This document shows, piece after piece, positions 10,912 through 19,255 of a DNA stretch of 34,296 bases. Each line of letters opens with the position of its first letter. Positions within the stretch are counted from its first letter, which is position 1. The stretch spans positions 42,415-76,710 of the forward strand of contig SPAX01000001.1 in the NCBI GenBank assembly GCA_005239475.1. The letters are read 5' to 3'. A program made the position numbers and the translations under genes. The notes below the pieces were generated by a model. That model worked only from the letters and a program-made list of their open reading frames with translations. It had not been told where the DNA came from and searched no databases. Source of the stretch: Nitrospira sp. GTDB taxonomy: Bacteria; Nitrospirota; Nitrospiria; Nitrospirales; Nitrospiraceae.

Positions 10912-11081
10912 GGTTCATGTGGGTGGGGCGGTTCCTGGCAGAACAGTCATGCCCAAGAGTCAGATCCAGCCCAAATCAGAACTCGACCGCCTCGAACCCG
11001 CCCCAACAATCATTCGATAAGCAATCCCCCCTGCGATTCTCCGTTGCGGTCAGTCGCCAACATCGGGTATGTAACTTCCCC

Positions 11082-12347
11082 ATGCCGATCGAAAACAGTT
11101 TTCAACACGACGAGATGTCACGAAAGAATCCTGGCGAACGGATCAGCGTTCGTGAGGTCTCCCCGACTGCCCTACTAGAGTCGCCTCCCGGGCAGAACGC
11201 GATGGCCACGCTCGGCACGCGCTTCTCATACGCTGGTGTCCGCGTGATCGTCTTGCTGAACGGCTCCATCATGGGGACCGATGTCTTTGGGGTACAACGA
11301 TTGGATGAGCTGGGCGGGCTCAAACGTGGCTACTCGCGCGGCGTGGCGGGGCTCGATGCCTTATTGGCCCTGATGCGCGAAGGCAGCAATGGCATTGCTC
11401 CGCTGCCCGGCGGGCTGAAGCCACCGCTCGCAAATGATGACGCCACCAAGAGGCTGCTCGATGAGCAGATCGGGGATGCAGGCAATTTCACCAATGCCTA
11501 TGTGGAACTGATGAGACAGTCGCTCAACCGAAGCCTGGATCGTCCGATCCATTGCGTCCGCGAGCTCTGGTCCTGTGAACATCATCACCTGGGCCGTGCC
11601 ATAGCGGCCGTCTCAACGCTCGGACGTCTTCGCGACTGGTGCGAGACCCACAAGCTGGGCGAGGGAGATCGGATCCTCGTGCAGGCTCATGGGCAGGCAG
11701 GACTAGTCCTCGCCCTCGTCTCGAACCTCTTGTGTGCGGCCTCGACCAGCAGCCGGACGCGACTACTCGACCTCTTATCGGCTTTTGCCTCGCAGGTGAA
11801 TCGACCAGACATCACCTCGACGATTCAACGTGTCGCGCCGTTGTTGTCGAATGACACCCTCCTCAATGGAGCGACGCTGGACGTTGTCACGTTTGGCATG
11901 CCGGTACGCTACGGGTGGGATCCATCTGGATTGGGCACACTGCTGCACATCGTCAACCATCGAAATCTTCGAACCGACGGCAAGACCTGGCTTTCAAAGA
12001 TGGAGTTGCCCCAGATCACGATGGAAATGCCGATCGCGTGGGGCGGAGATTATGTACAGGAGTTGGCCGTGGCTGGCAGCGATGCCGTGCCGACGACCGA
12101 TGCAGCCAAGGCAGCCAATAAAGCCCTCTGGGAACTTGTGGAGCCGTTTGATGGATTCGAACGATGGCTCGAATGTGCCCGCCGTGCCGTCCGTATCCCG
12201 AGTGAGGGGCTGGGGATTCTCGCCGACTACAAAGATTCCAACGGGTCAACGAATGTCCGCGACCACTACTACGGCCACGCGGCCTATACTCGCCTCAACA
12301 CGATGCTCTTCAACACGACCGAGATCGTTCGCACCCTCTATTCATAG
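11082..12347 (+). CDS. Hypothetical protein
   Basis: Long ORF with start trimmed to MPIENSF; segment GDRILVQAHGQAGLVLALVSNLL is weakly reminiscent of an alpha/beta-hydrolase elbow, but no family is recognised with confidence. Confidence 0.6.
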   Translation: MPIENSFQHDEMSRKNPGERISVREVSPTALLESPPGQNAMATLGTRFSYAGVRVIVLLNGSIMGTDVFGVQRLDELGGLKRGYSRGVAGLDALLALMREGSNGIAPLPGGLKPPLANDDATKRLLDEQIGDAGNFTNAYVELMRQSLNRSLDRPIHCVRELWSCEHHHLGRAIAAVSTLGRLRDWCETHKLGEGDRILVQAHGQAGLVLALVSNLLCAASTSSRTRLLDLLSAFASQVNRPDITSTIQRVAPLLSNDTLLNGATLDVVTFGMPVRYGWDPSGLGTLLHIVNHRNLRTDGKTWLSKMELPQITMEMPIAWGGDYVQELAVAGSDAVPTTDAAKAANKALWELVEPFDGFERWLECARRAVRIPSEGLGILADYKDSNGSTNVRDHYYGHAAYTRLNTMLFNTTEIVRTLYS

Positions 12348-12592: not shown

Positions 12593-13459
12593 CTACCCTT
12601 CGCGCAACTGCACCGCTAAAGGTTCCCAGGAAAATATGCCGTCAAGGTAGGCATGGCCGTTCGGCGTGGTGGCAACGAGTTCGATGGATTCGTATACGCT
12701 GATCGTCGTGCCGCTGCCGGCTGAAGCGGAGACTTGCATAGTGAGGGCCGCGCTCGGCGCGAGTGACGCAATGTCCTGATGCGTCCGCAATTGTGTCGGC
12801 GAGGCGAGAAGATTCACGAACCGCGCGGGCGGCGCCTGACGAAACTCGCCATCATAGGTCATCCACAGTCGCGCGACGGCCGACACATGGGCGTACCACT
12901 CGTCTCCGACCGCGTTCGCTTCTACCCAATTAAACAAGGTGTTCACCCGCGACATGATCGACACCGTCGTCGGTTCCATCGAGGCGGGAATCTGCAGCAG
13001 GGTCGTGTAGCCAGCGTGGACATATCCGAACGTATCCCAGAGCGAAGGATTCGCCCCGACCCGCGCCTGGACCGATTTATTCGGCAACGCATGCTCCACG
13101 TAGTGGGGATTCGCAGCAAGGCGAAGGTAGTGCGTATCTTCAAAGTATTTGATCTGATCGAGCTTGCACAGCGTTTCATCCCGATCGCCGAATCCGATGG
13201 TATTCGGCGCCGAGACACTATCCGCTCCGGTAAAAATCAACTTGCTCCAGCCGATCGGCGCAATGCAGCTGGCACTCGCCGACCCGTTCAACTTCTCCAG
13301 CACCGCCACACGATTCTTGATGTCGCTGAAGACCGACTCCAGCCCTTCTTTCGTTCCGCGGACCCGTTCGACCAGAAGAGTCTTTTCGAGTTTCCGTTGT
13401 TCTTCGAGTTGCCGCACAAACGAGGCTGTCTGCCGATCGAGTTCCAACACTGGTGCCAT
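12593..13459 (-). CDS. Hypothetical protein with N-terminal coiled-coil-like segment
   Basis: 288-aa ORF, MAPVLELDRQTASFVRQLEEQRKLEKTLLVERVRGTKEGLESVFSDIKNRVAVLEKLNG. Confidence 0.6.
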   Translation of the reverse strand: MAPVLELDRQTASFVRQLEEQRKLEKTLLVERVRGTKEGLESVFSDIKNRVAVLEKLNGSASASCIAPIGWSKLIFTGADSVSAPNTIGFGDRDETLCKLDQIKYFEDTHYLRLAANPHYVEHALPNKSVQARVGANPSLWDTFGYVHAGYTTLLQIPASMEPTTVSIMSRVNTLFNWVEANAVGDEWYAHVSAVARLWMTYDGEFRQAPPARFVNLLASPTQLRTHQDIASLAPSAALTMQVSASAGSGTTISVYESIELVATTPNGHAYLDGIFSWEPLAVQLREG

Positions 13460-13530: not shown

Positions 13531-13610
13531 CCTTCTAACCTCGCGCAAACTGGCTCTGAACGATATTTAGCCGAAGGGGGGAACCAACGAGAGGCACAGG
13601 TTTGAACGGG
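13531..13610 (+). repeat. Diverged direct repeat R1
   Basis: cgcgcaaactggctctgaacgatatttagccgaaggggggaaccaacgagaggcacaggtttgaa resembles 14140-14216. Confidence 0.65.
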
Positions 13611-13661: not shown

Positions 13662-13961
13662 CTAGGCGCGAGGTGCCTTGGTCAGTCTTGTCTTACCCTT
13701 TCTCGCCAATTCAAGGAGCACGCGCAACCCGTAATAGAAACATTCCTTGTTGTACCGTTTTTTCCATTCCTTGAGGGTGCTCTGCCCCGATTTGCTCTTT
13801 CGGCGAAGCGCCTGTGCCACGTCCTTGTGCAACCGGCATCGCGACTCAGAGGCCCGTTGTATCCACATCGGCGGGATATTCGCTCCGCCTCGCTGGAGAA
13901 GCCGATAGCCTTTCAACACGCTCCCGTCCGCACTCTCAAACAATGTTGCTTCCCTTGGCAT
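13662..13961 (-). CDS. Small basic hypothetical protein
   Basis: 99-aa ORF MPREATLFESADGSVLKGYRLLQRGG..., Lys/Arg-rich; flanked by R1/R2. Confidence 0.45.
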   Translation of the reverse strand: MPREATLFESADGSVLKGYRLLQRGGANIPPMWIQRASESRCRLHKDVAQALRRKSKSGQSTLKEWKKRYNKECFYYGLRVLLELARKGKTRLTKAPRA

Positions 13962-14139: not shown

Positions 14140-14216
14140 CCTTAATCCCGCGCAAATTGACTCTGGTTATAATTCAGCCGAAGGTAAGAACCAACGACAG
14201 TCACAGGTTTGAATGA
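14140..14216 (+). repeat. Diverged direct repeat R2
   Basis: cgcgcaaattgactctggttataattcagccgaaggtaagaaccaacgacagtcacaggtttgaa matches R1. Confidence 0.65.
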
Positions 14217-14250: not shown

Positions 14251-14712
14251 TTACATGTGATCGATGGTTGGGCTAGGAGAAGTAGGCGGCGGAAGTCTCA
14301 GCTCCGATTGTTCGGCAAGGACATTCATTTTGTCCAACTGCTTTTCTCTAGAATCAGGCCAATTGACGATGTCTGCATGGCGAGGGTGAGGCGTGGGGGC
14401 AGGTTCTATCAGTAGACCTGCAGAGGATAGAATGACATCGGCCGAAACATCTGCCCTGGCTAATACCCGTTGACCATCTTGTCGTTTCTCCGTGACGTAC
14501 TTCTCACCGATTAGCCAGACTTCATCATCGTTGCAACCCTCGGTGCGATATACCGAAGTCTTGGCAATCGTAGACGGGGGTTTGGGAGTCCTAGGCGAGA
14601 AGGCCTGGGGCGAAACATTGTCGGTCTTGTGATTAAACCACTTTCGCTGGGTTAAAAAGCGGGTTATCCGTTCGTTTGGACATACGCCTATGGTTGGAAG
14701 TGGATCAGGCAC
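14251..14712 (-). CDS. Hypothetical protein, third gene of the TIGR04255-like cassette
   Basis: GTG start overlapping the upstream stop; TSVYRTEGCNDDEVWLIGEKYV...GLLIEPAPTPHPRHADIVNWP motif. Confidence 0.6.
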   Translation of the reverse strand: MPDPLPTIGVCPNERITRFLTQRKWFNHKTDNVSPQAFSPRTPKPPSTIAKTSVYRTEGCNDDEVWLIGEKYVTEKRQDGQRVLARADVSADVILSSAGLLIEPAPTPHPRHADIVNWPDSREKQLDKMNVLAEQSELRLPPPTSPSPTIDHM

Positions 14713-15208
14713 TGGTACATTGCTTTGTTAGTATTTCAGTAAGTCGAGTTGGCCACCCGTCCACAAAGGGCTTTGATGCACTTTCTCTGTTGTTGAGGGC
14801 ACCAAGAATCGCAGAAAAAACTATCTCGTCTCCATGAACCAGTAGAGACAGCCTTCTATATTTCCCAAAACGCCACTCAAATGCGATTTCTCCGTCAACA
14901 GAAGGAACCGCTTCCGGTGGACGAACGACGTCAGGCGCTAGATAAATTAACCTGATGGCACGCCCAACTGACGCCGAAGAGATGGGGACAGCTTCTTCAC
15001 CATCCCATCCTTCCCTTGAACAAGCACTTGCGATGTCTAGAATTTCATCTCTGAGTAATTCCTTCCACGCAAGTGAAACAGGCTCAGTCGTCTGCCCATT
15101 GGACTCAGACAGGACACCGCCCTTTTCCTTAGCTCTTTCGAACAAGGCGGATGGACCTGACCCCGTCTCCCAGCGATTGGACATTAATATTTCTCCTGAA
15201 AAACTCAT
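14705..15208 (-). CDS. Hypothetical protein, second gene of the cassette
   Basis: REGWDGEEAVPISSASVGRAIRLIYLAPDVVRPPEAVPSVDGEIAFEWRFGKYRRLSLLVHGDEIVFSAILG; ATGA overlap with the upstream gene. Confidence 0.65.
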   Translation of the reverse strand: MSFSGEILMSNRWETGSGPSALFERAKEKGGVLSESNGQTTEPVSLAWKELLRDEILDIASACSREGWDGEEAVPISSASVGRAIRLIYLAPDVVRPPEAVPSVDGEIAFEWRFGKYRRLSLLVHGDEIVFSAILGALNNRESASKPFVDGWPTRLTEILTKQCTSA

Positions 15209-15969
15209 TTGTTGAAGAGTTCCTTGGTTCTGTGAAGGAGGCTAGCCTCAAAGATAGTATTCTTTAGTTCTCTCAATTGGTCAAGAGTTTCCCACACGGG
15301 GAACGAATCTAATGGTACTTTCCCAGGCCGGGAAACATCAATGTCCAAGGCAACAGCTATAGCCCCAGGATAGATTTGCTGTATGGGGTAATGCCTTACC
15401 ACAGCAAGTGCCTTGTACTTTGGTACCTTGATAGTGACGGAGTTAGAAAAGTCCAGGATATCTTGGAAGGGGAGATCCGGTGGGATTCTAGGCGGGGCGG
15501 TGAAATAGTCATAGAGTTCGATCGTCGACCCAGGAATGACTATTTGATTAATGTATCTGACCGCCAGCCTAGTTATCTGTGTTAAATTCAAGGCTGCGGC
15601 GTAGATCTCCCATACCTGTCTGGCCTCTTCTCGCATACTTTCCCAGCCAGGCCAAACCTCATACGGATCTGGCTTCATTCTATTGTGCGTAAAACCATCA
15701 AGGCGGAGTTGCATTATTCCCTTCTGATCTTCTGATTCTAGCCAGAGGCCATGAACGCCTGAGGCCACAGGCGAAGCAACAACTTTGGTTCCTTCTATCT
15801 GGACACCGCCCTCAAACTTATACCGGAGTTTCTTGTTTGGATATTTAGCTGCTAACCTACTGGTGAGGCTTTCGAGGAGATGAAACTTCTCCGAAGGCAA
15901 GGAGTCAATTCTGATGTCGATGAGGGCTTCACTAACTGGTGGTTTTTTGTACCGAGGGGCTTCCAACAT
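15205..15969 (-). CDS. TIGR04255-like protein, first gene of the cassette
   Basis: Start trimmed to MLEAPRYKKPPVSEALIDIRIDSLPSEKFHLLESL; RLAVRYINQIVIPG; family recalled, not searched. Confidence 0.7.
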   Translation of the reverse strand: MLEAPRYKKPPVSEALIDIRIDSLPSEKFHLLESLTSRLAAKYPNKKLRYKFEGGVQIEGTKVVASPVASGVHGLWLESEDQKGIMQLRLDGFTHNRMKPDPYEVWPGWESMREEARQVWEIYAAALNLTQITRLAVRYINQIVIPGSTIELYDYFTAPPRIPPDLPFQDILDFSNSVTIKVPKYKALAVVRHYPIQQIYPGAIAVALDIDVSRPGKVPLDSFPVWETLDQLRELKNTIFEASLLHRTKELFNK

Positions 15970-16126
15970 ATGTACGCACAACCATATCAGACTGGTAAAA
16001 GACTCTGTGGGGAGTGAGTATACAGCTACAAGCGTGCGTTGGCTACCGGTTGGCCCTCGGCGCATGACAATCGCCTGTCTTGCAACTTAGCGTCATAGCC
16101 GTTGATTAGCAGTTGCGACTATCTCC

Positions 16127-16204
16127 CGGATACGCCACTCGCCAATTCTTGCCGAAACCAAGGTCCACTTTAAATAACACCGAGAGCTGATTCGCTTCTC
16201 CCCC
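16127..16204 (-). pseudogene. Remnant of a second polA 3' end
   Basis: Minus strand reads VLFKVDLGFGKNWRVAYP versus VPLKVDLGTGHNWRVAHP at the extant polA C-terminus; gccactcgcca and cacttt/gacttt blocks align without frameshift. Confidence 0.75.
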
Positions 16205-16217
16205 TATCTTTTCACTT

Positions 16218-16311
16218 GGGAGTGGCTGGGATGATCCCGACTGCGCGCGTCGGACGAGCACATTCTTATCGTGCGCGTTCCGCGAGCAAAGGGATCGTCC
16301 CAGCTACCCCC
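16218..16311 (+). repeat. Family C structured element, copy 2
   Basis: Arms GGGAGTGGCTGGGATGATCCC / GGGATCGTCCCAGCTACCCCC; core gactgcgcgcgtcggacgagcacattcttatcgtgcgcgttccgcgagcaaagg. Confidence 0.75.
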
Positions 16312-16316
16312 TTCTC

Positions 16317-16597: not shown

Positions 16598-19255
16598 TTA
16601 CGGATGCGCCACTCGCCAGTTGTGTCCTGTCCCTAGATCGACTTTTAAGGGCACCGACAATCCCAGCTTCTTCCCCGTCGCTTCCATCTCGGTCTTCACG
16701 AGATGCTTCGCCTCGTCCAATTCCTTCTCCGGCACCTCGAAGATCAATTCATCGTGGACCTGGAGAATCATCTTGGTATGCGGCAGCTCCTGTTGCAGCC
16801 GCTGGTTTACATCGATCATTGCCACTTTGATGAGGTCCGCGGCTGAGCCCTGGATCGGACTGTTCACCGCCATACGCTCGCCGAATCCGCGCTGCACCGG
16901 ATCGCCGCTCTGCAACTCTGGAATCGGACGCCGCCGGCCGAGGATCGTCGTCGTGTAGCCTTTGGTTTTTCCTTCTTCGATATTCCGGTCCATCAAGGCG
17001 CGCACCGCTGAAAACTTCTCAAAGAACGTCTCGATGTATTTCTTCGCGTCCGCCTGCGACACGCCGATATTCGAGGCCAGACCGAACGGACTGATCCCAT
17101 ACACAATTCCGAATACGACCGTCTTGGCCGCGCGTCGCATATCTCTGGTGATCTGACTGGAGGGCAGAGCGAAAATCTCCATAGCCGTGGCCATGTGAAT
17201 GTCTTCGCCTTTGGCAAACACGGCAAGCAAGCGCGGATCTTGCGACAGGTGCGCAAGGATACGCGGCTCGATCTGGCTATAGTCGGCACAGAGGAGCGTG
17301 TGGCCTGCAGGCGCAATGAAGGCTTCGCGAATGCGCAAGCCATAGTCGCCCTTCACCGGAATGTTTTGCAGATTGGGCTCGGTGGAGGAGAGCCGGCCGG
17401 TCGCAGCGACGGTTTGATTCAACGAGGTATGCAGCCGCTTGGTCTCCGGATTCACCAGTTCTGGTAGTGCATCCACATAGGTGGACTTGAGTTTACTGAG
17501 GCTCCGATAGTTGACAATCTGCGCGGGCAATTCGTGTTGGGTGGCGAGCTGCGTCAGTGTGTCTTCGTCGGTCGAGTACCCGGTCTTGGTTTTCCTGATC
17601 GGTTTGAGTCCCAACTTCTCGAAGAGCACCGTGGCGAGCTGCTTCGGCGAATTGATATTGAACTCGCCGCCGGCCAATCCTTCGATCGTCTTGATCATCT
17701 GGTCAAGTTCCCGTTCCAATTCTTTGCTGAGCGCGCGCAGGCCCTCGATATCCAATAAAAATCCGTTCCGCTCGATCTCGGCCAACACCGGCACCAGCGG
17801 CATTTCAACATCGTTGAAGAGTCTGAGGCTGCCCTGCTCCGACAATCGTTCCGTCATGACCGGGGCGAGCCTGGCTAGCACCGACGCAGCCTCTGTTGCC
17901 TCCTCGCGTGATCCGCTGTCCTCATCGAACAGGGATTGCGGTGCGGCGCTGTCTTTTTGTCCGGTCCCAAGCCGATGGTCCAGCACTTCCAGCGCGATGG
18001 TTTCAAGCTGATGGTCGCGGCGGTTGGGATTGAGCAGATAGTCCGCCACCATGGTATCCATATAGGGACCTGCGAGGGTCACTCCGATACGGTGAAAGGC
18101 CAACAGGGTCGATTTTAGATCGTGGACCACCTTGGTTCTCGTAGGGTCGTGCAGCAAGGCAATGATGGGCCGCATATAGGTTCGGACGTCGAGAGGAATA
18201 AAGGCGGTCTTGTTTCCTGTAGACAGGGCGATCCCCTCCACATCCGCCTGCACACCGGGCCCAGGGGAGAGCAGACACTGCAGGCCGAGGACGCCACCCT
18301 TCGACAAGCCCTCCACAAATCGCTGTGCGGAGGGTTCATCCTGAATGAGCTCTGTCCCAACCGCGTTCGTGCCGGCTAGTTTAGACGCAGGCTGAAAGGA
18401 CTTGAGGAGCGTGGTGAACCCCAGCTCGCGCAACAAATCAGTGAGCTGGTCCTGATGGGGCGGCTGAATGTGATAAGTCTCGGGATCGAATGTGACAGGA
18501 CTATCCAGCTGGATGGTCGCCAGCCGCCGGCTGAGACGGGCGTGCTCGGCCTGGTCGATCAACAGGGCTTTGATTCGAGGCGGCGTGACCTCCTCGACGC
18601 GGCGTAAGAGCTCTTCAATCGTGCCGAATTGGGCGATCAGTTTCATCGCCGTCTTCTCACCGATGCCCTTCACGCCGGGAATATTGTCCGCCGCATCGCC
18701 CATAAGCCCCATGATCTCCACGACACGCGCCGGCTCCACGCCGAAACGTTCGCGGCATTCCGCTTCTCCGAGCCACTTGTCTTTCACCGGATCGTAGATG
18801 CGCACGTGGGGCGTCAGGAGCTGGAACATGTCCTTGTCGCCTGTGACGATAACGACGTCGAACCCGGCCTGTTCGGCCTGCTGCGCGAGGGTGCCGATCA
18901 AATCGTCCGCCTCGTATCCCTCCTGCCGGACGGCGGGAATGTTGAGGGCCTCCACCACGCGATGGATGTAAGGGATCTGGGCGCTCATGCCTTCCGGCAT
19001 CGGCGGCCGCTGCGCCTTGTAGGCCTTGAACTCCGCGTGGCGCAACGTCGGACCCTTTTCGTCAAACGCCACGACGAGGCCGTCCGGCTTCTTCTCGCGA
19101 ATAATCTTCAGCAACATCGTCGTGAAGCCGAGGATGGCGTTGGTCTGGAGCCCTTTGGAATTATTCAGCGCCGGCAGGGCAAAGAACGCACGATAGATAT
19201 AGGCGCTCCCATCGATCAGGTAGAGCGTCTTACGGCTGGACTCGGTGCTCGGCAT
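16598..19255 (-). CDS. polA: DNA polymerase I
   Basis: 5'-3' exo domain YLIDGSAYIYRAFFALP; polymerase motifs ADYSQIEPR, RRAAKTVVFGIVYG, QVHDELIFEVPE. Confidence 0.98.
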   Translation of the reverse strand: MPSTESSRKTLYLIDGSAYIYRAFFALPALNNSKGLQTNAILGFTTMLLKIIREKKPDGLVVAFDEKGPTLRHAEFKAYKAQRPPMPEGMSAQIPYIHRVVEALNIPAVRQEGYEADDLIGTLAQQAEQAGFDVVIVTGDKDMFQLLTPHVRIYDPVKDKWLGEAECRERFGVEPARVVEIMGLMGDAADNIPGVKGIGEKTAMKLIAQFGTIEELLRRVEEVTPPRIKALLIDQAEHARLSRRLATIQLDSPVTFDPETYHIQPPHQDQLTDLLRELGFTTLLKSFQPASKLAGTNAVGTELIQDEPSAQRFVEGLSKGGVLGLQCLLSPGPGVQADVEGIALSTGNKTAFIPLDVRTYMRPIIALLHDPTRTKVVHDLKSTLLAFHRIGVTLAGPYMDTMVADYLLNPNRRDHQLETIALEVLDHRLGTGQKDSAAPQSLFDEDSGSREEATEAASVLARLAPVMTERLSEQGSLRLFNDVEMPLVPVLAEIERNGFLLDIEGLRALSKELERELDQMIKTIEGLAGGEFNINSPKQLATVLFEKLGLKPIRKTKTGYSTDEDTLTQLATQHELPAQIVNYRSLSKLKSTYVDALPELVNPETKRLHTSLNQTVAATGRLSSTEPNLQNIPVKGDYGLRIREAFIAPAGHTLLCADYSQIEPRILAHLSQDPRLLAVFAKGEDIHMATAMEIFALPSSQITRDMRRAAKTVVFGIVYGISPFGLASNIGVSQADAKKYIETFFEKFSAVRALMDRNIEEGKTKGYTTTILGRRRPIPELQSGDPVQRGFGERMAVNSPIQGSAADLIKVAMIDVNQRLQQELPHTKMILQVHDELIFEVPEKELDEAKHLVKTEMEATGKKLGLSVPLKVDLGTGHNWRVAHP

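Follow-up and report, generated by a model that had tools for sequence, protein, structure and literature searches.

The described systems closest to the operon analysed here are PDC-M32 of the PADLOC collection and the toxin-antitoxin operons MazEF, VapBC and omega-epsilon-zeta. PDCs are putative candidates generated by a guilt-by-embedding approach and are mostly unvalidated (PMC12988326). For PDC-M32 itself, a published report places it in prophages of Sinorhizobium, solely on the basis of PADLOC annotation (PMC12429752). The first gene of the operon belongs to TIGR04255, a family that NCBIfam describes as 'sporadically distributed'; the entry describes no function or operon context, and the literature searched does not name the family. 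The second and third genes, B and C, are related to PDC-M32: B is homologous to the last ~110 residues of PDC-M32A, C is a distant homologue of PDC-M32B, and gene order and overlap are the same. The two differ in that PDC-M32A fuses an unrelated N-domain (1-258) to B, whereas a separate TIGR04255 protein takes its place here. With MazEF, VapBC and omega-epsilon-zeta the operon shares small overlapping genes and a sporadic, partly mobile distribution, and sister operons of TIGR04255 end in MazF, VapC or zeta. It differs from them in its last gene: C belongs to none of the MazF, PIN, zeta and HEPN types, and no solved structure matches its fold.

The cassette occupies 1.7 kb of the window, by which we mean the whole 34,296-nucleotide stretch of Nitrospira DNA that was analysed, and consists of three co-oriented genes on the minus strand (Table 1). 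Co-translation of the three genes, as originally predicted, is borne out in that the ATGA and 8-bp overlaps are both present in the sequence at the predicted coordinates. The start of A was taken at 15969 in preference to 16065 because the homologue in G008, a genome of the same genus, is likewise 254 aa long. The G008 copy is 80% identical, and dN/dS against it is 0.084 for A and 0.153 for B, so both are real genes under purifying selection. A promoter-like site upstream of A scores 9/12, and the region holds 5 such sites against 2.3 +/- 1.4 expected from shuffles. The cassette was also thought to be AT-richer than its flanks, and it is: its GC content is 0.489 versus 0.575 for the window, rather than equal to it. 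Only 14 of 1304 segments of the same size have a lower GC content, and all 14 overlap the cassette. GC3 is 0.50, 0.41 and 0.50 for A, B and C, respectively, versus 0.74 for polA. In being small, co-oriented and overlapping, and in their sporadic distribution, the genes resemble toxin-antitoxin operons.

Table 1. Features of the A-B-C cassette and its polA-side flank (positions in the window)
Feature	Position	Strand	Description
Gene A	15205..15969	-	254 aa, TIGR04255 family; proposed sensor/regulator
Gene B	14705..15208	-	167 aa; proposed antitoxin/adaptor
Gene C	14251..14712	-	153 aa, GTG start; proposed toxin-like effector
A/B stop/start overlap, ATGA	15205..15208	-	seen in the sequence; identical 4-bp overlap at most homologous loci
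B/C overlap, 8 bp	14705..14712	-	seen in the sequence
Promoter-like site 5' of A, weak	16017..16045	-	TAGCCA-17-TATACT, consensus match only
polA 3'-end remnant ('scar')	16127..16183	-	between Sp36-like gene and A; 57 nt, 72% identity to 16601-16657

A was recognised from its sequence as a TIGR04255 protein, and it is a full-length member (NCBIfam E 6.6e-28; 98.2 bits against a curated cut-off of 30; positions 1-252 of 252). Its AlphaFold2 model (pLDDT 86.5, pTM 0.82) consists of two similar halves, the first with the topology beta-alpha-beta4-alpha, and has no Foldseek match in the PDB below E 1e-3. Kinship with TBP-type (probability 0.94, TM 0.30) or PYR/PR-10-type proteins was rejected, the Foldseek matches being non-significant; they agree with the beta-alpha-beta4-alpha topology of A and show no relationship. 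A weak sequence match to IpaB was judged to be due to chance, and a tblastn search for A in phages found nothing.

B and C belong to no Pfam or NCBIfam family. Alignment of 17 homologues of each reveals a conserved core in B (WDGxxAxPI ... P...P..dGxIxFEW) and conserved motifs in C (SVYR ... R-A-D ... HPRHAxIxNWP). Weak sequence matches of B to Cas12a and gag, and of C to TFIIB_C_1 and eIF4E, were judged to be chance. No member of the C family carries a recognised toxin domain, such toxins being confined to sister operons, and C has no significant match in Pfam, NCBIfam or PHROG. Its AlphaFold2 model (pLDDT 89.7) finds no fold match in the PDB (best E 0.52). The original prediction held that a structural match to a housekeeping function would count against the proposed role; for the models of A and C, the PDB yielded no housekeeping structure as a match. 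The conserved residues R18, S53, R86 and H112 of C could belong to an active or binding site.

The three families had been said to occur together sporadically in bacteria, and a neighbourhood check agrees. B is present in 21 of the 198 relatives searched, and at about 20 loci A lies directly upstream and C directly downstream on the same strand, mostly with a 4-bp A/B overlap. Adjacency, order and strand are almost always kept wherever the contig extends far enough; the exceptions are contig ends and, in G016, a degraded lone B with genes of a type I restriction system on both sides. Close relatives are found mostly in Nitrospirota genomes, and a search of a genome collection with the window's B alone found no relatives. 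When named genomes were scanned with a subset alignment of C, an initial one having proved too divergent to serve as a seed, further A-B-C loci came to light in Mariprofundus and in one MAG each of Nitrospinota and Acidobacteria. The operon is thus found outside Nitrospirota in Nitrospinota, Zetaproteobacteria and Acidobacteria, four phyla in all. In genus g24 the chromosomal surroundings of some loci are alike from one species to the next, which makes vertical inheritance likelier there than a mobile module. As for mobile elements, one IMG/VR viral contig, found with the A7 subtype as a single match, carries an integrase-like gene followed by A, B and C; viral contigs searched with C, and plasmids searched by tblastn with B and C, yielded nothing. 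A-B-C is almost certainly one functional operon.

The window's genome has a second operon of this type (G000 contig C175:19802-20967; locus L044:11251-12998), in which the genome's other TIGR04255 gene precedes a WDSYGG-type B' and X, a protein of ~144 aa, both diverged from B and C of the window. Profile comparison with hhalign relates B to B' (98%, E 6e-14) and C over its full length to the X or PDC-M32B-type profile (78%, E 1.8e-5). A is related to the A7 subtype (100%, E 2.5e-38) and more weakly to a third A subtype (48%, E 1.8e-4). A fourth C subtype, C4, is related to X (85%, E 6e-6) and reaches only 10% with the window's C by hhalign. The first gene can also be exchanged. In three Deltaproteobacteria genomes from the C scan, a 219-aa protein (A') precedes B-C in place of A; it has no detectable relationship to A (hhalign 0.1%), and TIGR04255 is absent from the one A'-B-C genome that was checked whole.

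The link of B to PDC-M32 is direct at the level of the family: 15 of 18 members match the last ~110 residues of PDC-M32A (best E 1.3e-6), the window's B doing so over positions 272-356 of 375 only (E 0.0068). The window operon lacks the PDC-M32A N-domain, and so contains no single-protein PDC-M32A. C of the window has no direct match to PDC-M32B and is linked through X, which matches PDC-M32B with E 1.6e-4. Plasmids from Rhodococcus, Rhizobium and Limnohabitans encode a protein of 373-401 aa made of N-domain and B domain (E 5e-17 to 2e-5 for the latter), whose gene overlaps that of a following C homologue (E 1.7e-12 to 9e-4). These arrangements show B-C to be a portable pair that stands behind TIGR04255, the 219-aa protein or the PDC-M32A N-domain.

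TIGR04255 is sporadic in the genomes sampled, A being present in 68 of 198 relatives and in 18/199 and 20/249 genomes of two other phyla. Its partners at the ~86 loci in relatives were tallied by hand from the gene neighbourhoods. About 40 loci carry A-B-C, in four subtypes; 9 have a HEAT-like protein and DUF7689, 9 a 'QDCDL' protein and 2 a HEPN-like protein. Roughly 21, many of them at one conserved chromosomal position, are without a recognised B-C-like or toxin partner, which implies that A is also of use elsewhere than in such operons, and the remainder are truncated or unclear. In genus g32, lone TIGR04255 genes (L132, L138-L141, L146-L152, L154) are kept at a single conserved position in the chromosome with neither B nor C, and A may have its own role there.

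Several sister operons of TIGR04255 end in toxins. In the two other phyla, where A-B-C occurs as well, the downstream gene is MazF at L223 (PDB match E 8.8e-12) and VapC at L216 (E 5.5e-11). On a Vibrio plasmid, TIGR04255 is followed by a protein of 180 aa and then by a gene annotated as a zeta toxin. Other downstream genes are a second PIN-like, a PemK-like, an HNH-like and a HEPN-like gene, assigned by sequence or weak similarity. In the DUF7689 operons, a HEAT-like gene follows TIGR04255 and the third gene belongs to DUF7689 (PF24738; E 8.7e-42), with an invariant cysteine in NCIAWA and histidine in PTHAARQ. These operons resemble A-B-C in their first gene, three-gene layout and 4-bp overlap, and differ in that their second and third genes come from other families. 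In three genomes (L127, L128, L129) they are enclosed by type I restriction genes, R-like on one side and S-like on the other, the R and S identities having been confirmed at one DUF7689 locus each; the HEAT-like and DUF7689 proteins at these loci are a candidate unnamed effector pair. Another, recurrent partner of TIGR04255, with the pattern 'RQGDI ... SQDCDL', belongs to no Pfam family in the members scanned and is sometimes preceded by an HTH protein (L124-L126, L135, L144, L145, L155, L156, L161, L214, L226, L234, L237, L242).

The position of the toxins in the sister operons provides the main argument for the roles of B and C: since toxins come last, the last gene would be the effector and the middle gene its partner. 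We favour, at slightly better than even chances, the view that A-B-C is a three-component toxin-antitoxin-like conflict module made up of a sensor/regulator (A), an antitoxin or adaptor (B) and an effector (C). C would be the effector and would probably arrest growth. B, encoded directly before C and translationally coupled to it, would be the cognate antitoxin or adaptor of C, and A would be an interchangeable sensor/regulator that keeps the B-C complex inactive. Infection or another stress would make A release B-C, and translational coupling would set the stoichiometry of the three proteins. What the analysis shows is the operon itself, its homology and its modularity; the toxicity of C, its neutralisation by B, sensing by A and an outcome in phage defence are inferred. 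Several findings count against this view: the C family lacks a recognised toxin domain and a PDB fold match, ~21 TIGR04255 genes have no such partners, the g24 loci look vertically inherited, and C reaches only 10% with C4. A toxin-antitoxin-like or defence role had been offered as a hypothesis; it has gained indirectly from the toxin-ending TIGR04255 operons, the PDC-M32 homology and the restriction and defence neighbours, and falls short of proof. Neither the modularity nor the link to PDC-M32 was part of that hypothesis.

The neighbours come from 127 proteins flanking A-B-C loci. A type III methylase lies directly before A at L040, where a NERD/UvrD-type helicase follows C, and another lies near the operon at L041. 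A ZorD/DpdE-like helicase is found at L085 and a type I R fragment at L089; SoFic/Fic is confirmed at L031 and identified by the Fic motif at L032 and L033. Proximity to known defence genes, which had been proposed as a check, is seen at several loci, as a raw observation uncorrected for background frequency. Such neighbours are no more than suggestive of a tie between the operon and defence.

These neighbours, together with the listing of PDC-M32 by PADLOC as a defence candidate and the interchangeable first modules before one B-C pair, also suit the main rival explanation, which we consider unlikely. According to this explanation the operon is a non-addictive phage defence system with Thoeris- or CBASS-like logic and no constitutive toxicity, in which A would detect a signal of infection, B would relay it to C, and C would be an enzyme active only upon activation. 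Against it, the last gene of sister operons headed by the same A encodes a classical toxin of toxin-antitoxin systems, mostly after a small antitoxin-sized gene. It is improbable that the operon has a regulatory or housekeeping role, lacks an effector of its own and accompanies restriction-modification loci, whose expression it might control, for instance. Such a role would explain why TIGR04255 operons or B are found inside or beside restriction operons, as well as the stable chromosomal position in some lineages and the lone TIGR04255 genes; however, most A-B-C loci have no detected adjacent restriction system, and sporadic presence and swaps with toxin genes also argue against it. The reverse polarity, with B toxin-like and C its antitoxin or immunity protein, is very improbable: B is a domain fused in PDC-M32A and can stand alone, as the degraded copy without A or C in G016 does, but the recognised toxins of sister operons occupy the place of C, and in PDC-M32A it is B that replaces an antitoxin-like tail, as judged from the G005 protein that precedes a PIN gene.

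The conflict-module reading can be extended beyond the operon. The kind of system, toxin-antitoxin-like or defence candidate, is already known, and the B-C half is partly covered by PDC-M32. In the literature searched, we found no description of the TIGR04255-headed three-gene form, of the exchange of toxins behind it, or of a C effector lacking a fold match. Tentatively, and at somewhat less than even chances, TIGR04255 may be the shared sensor/regulator of a large, unnamed and modular three-gene conflict superfamily whose exchangeable last genes would include MazF, VapC, zeta, HEPN-like, HNH-like, DUF7689, QDCDL and C, with C an effector of new fold and new activity. The recurrence of a widespread family as the first gene before MazF, VapC, zeta and HEPN-like genes suggests a shared toxin-antitoxin-like role that is testable. 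An unvalidated candidate, PDC-M32, is now tied to a much larger set of operons, and the C family becomes a candidate effector family without a known structural relative.

The cassette lies at the polA flank, where the region downstream of polA and the Sp36-like gene varies within the genus. polA was matched in 26 genomes of the genus, and just two of these, G008 and the genome of the window, contain A-B-C DNA at this place. In G005, a species of this genus, the same flank (L067:6617-8835) holds a uracil-DNA-glycosylase-like gene, a PDC-M32A N-domain protein and a PIN gene (PF01850, E 9.5e-12); the N-domain, coupled there to a PIN toxin rather than to B, carries an antitoxin-like tail. The polA scar that had been noted beside the cassette is real, being a 57-nt match to the polA 3' end at 72% identity. 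Its reading as a mark of cassette insertion was not upheld: comparable polA-3' remnants occur downstream of polA in G012 and G027, both without the cassette there, and the scar is thus a feature of the polA flank and no proven insertion mark.

No tRNA gene is present within the window. Of the open reading frames beside the cassette, those on the minus strand at 12593-13459 and 13662-13961 have no match in Pfam, NCBIfam, PADLOC or PHROG, and the plus-strand frame at 10917-12347 has none in Pfam and NCBIfam. Two imperfect direct copies of ~70 bp, seen by eye downstream of C at 13537-13607 and 14148-14213 and missed by a 30-nt ungapped repeat search, read cgcaaa..gactctg..agccgaagg..gaaccaacga..gtcacaggtttgaa. 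A different short repeat, at 16205-16316 of the window, is present in one to several copies around polA and the Sp36-like gene in most genomes of the genus.
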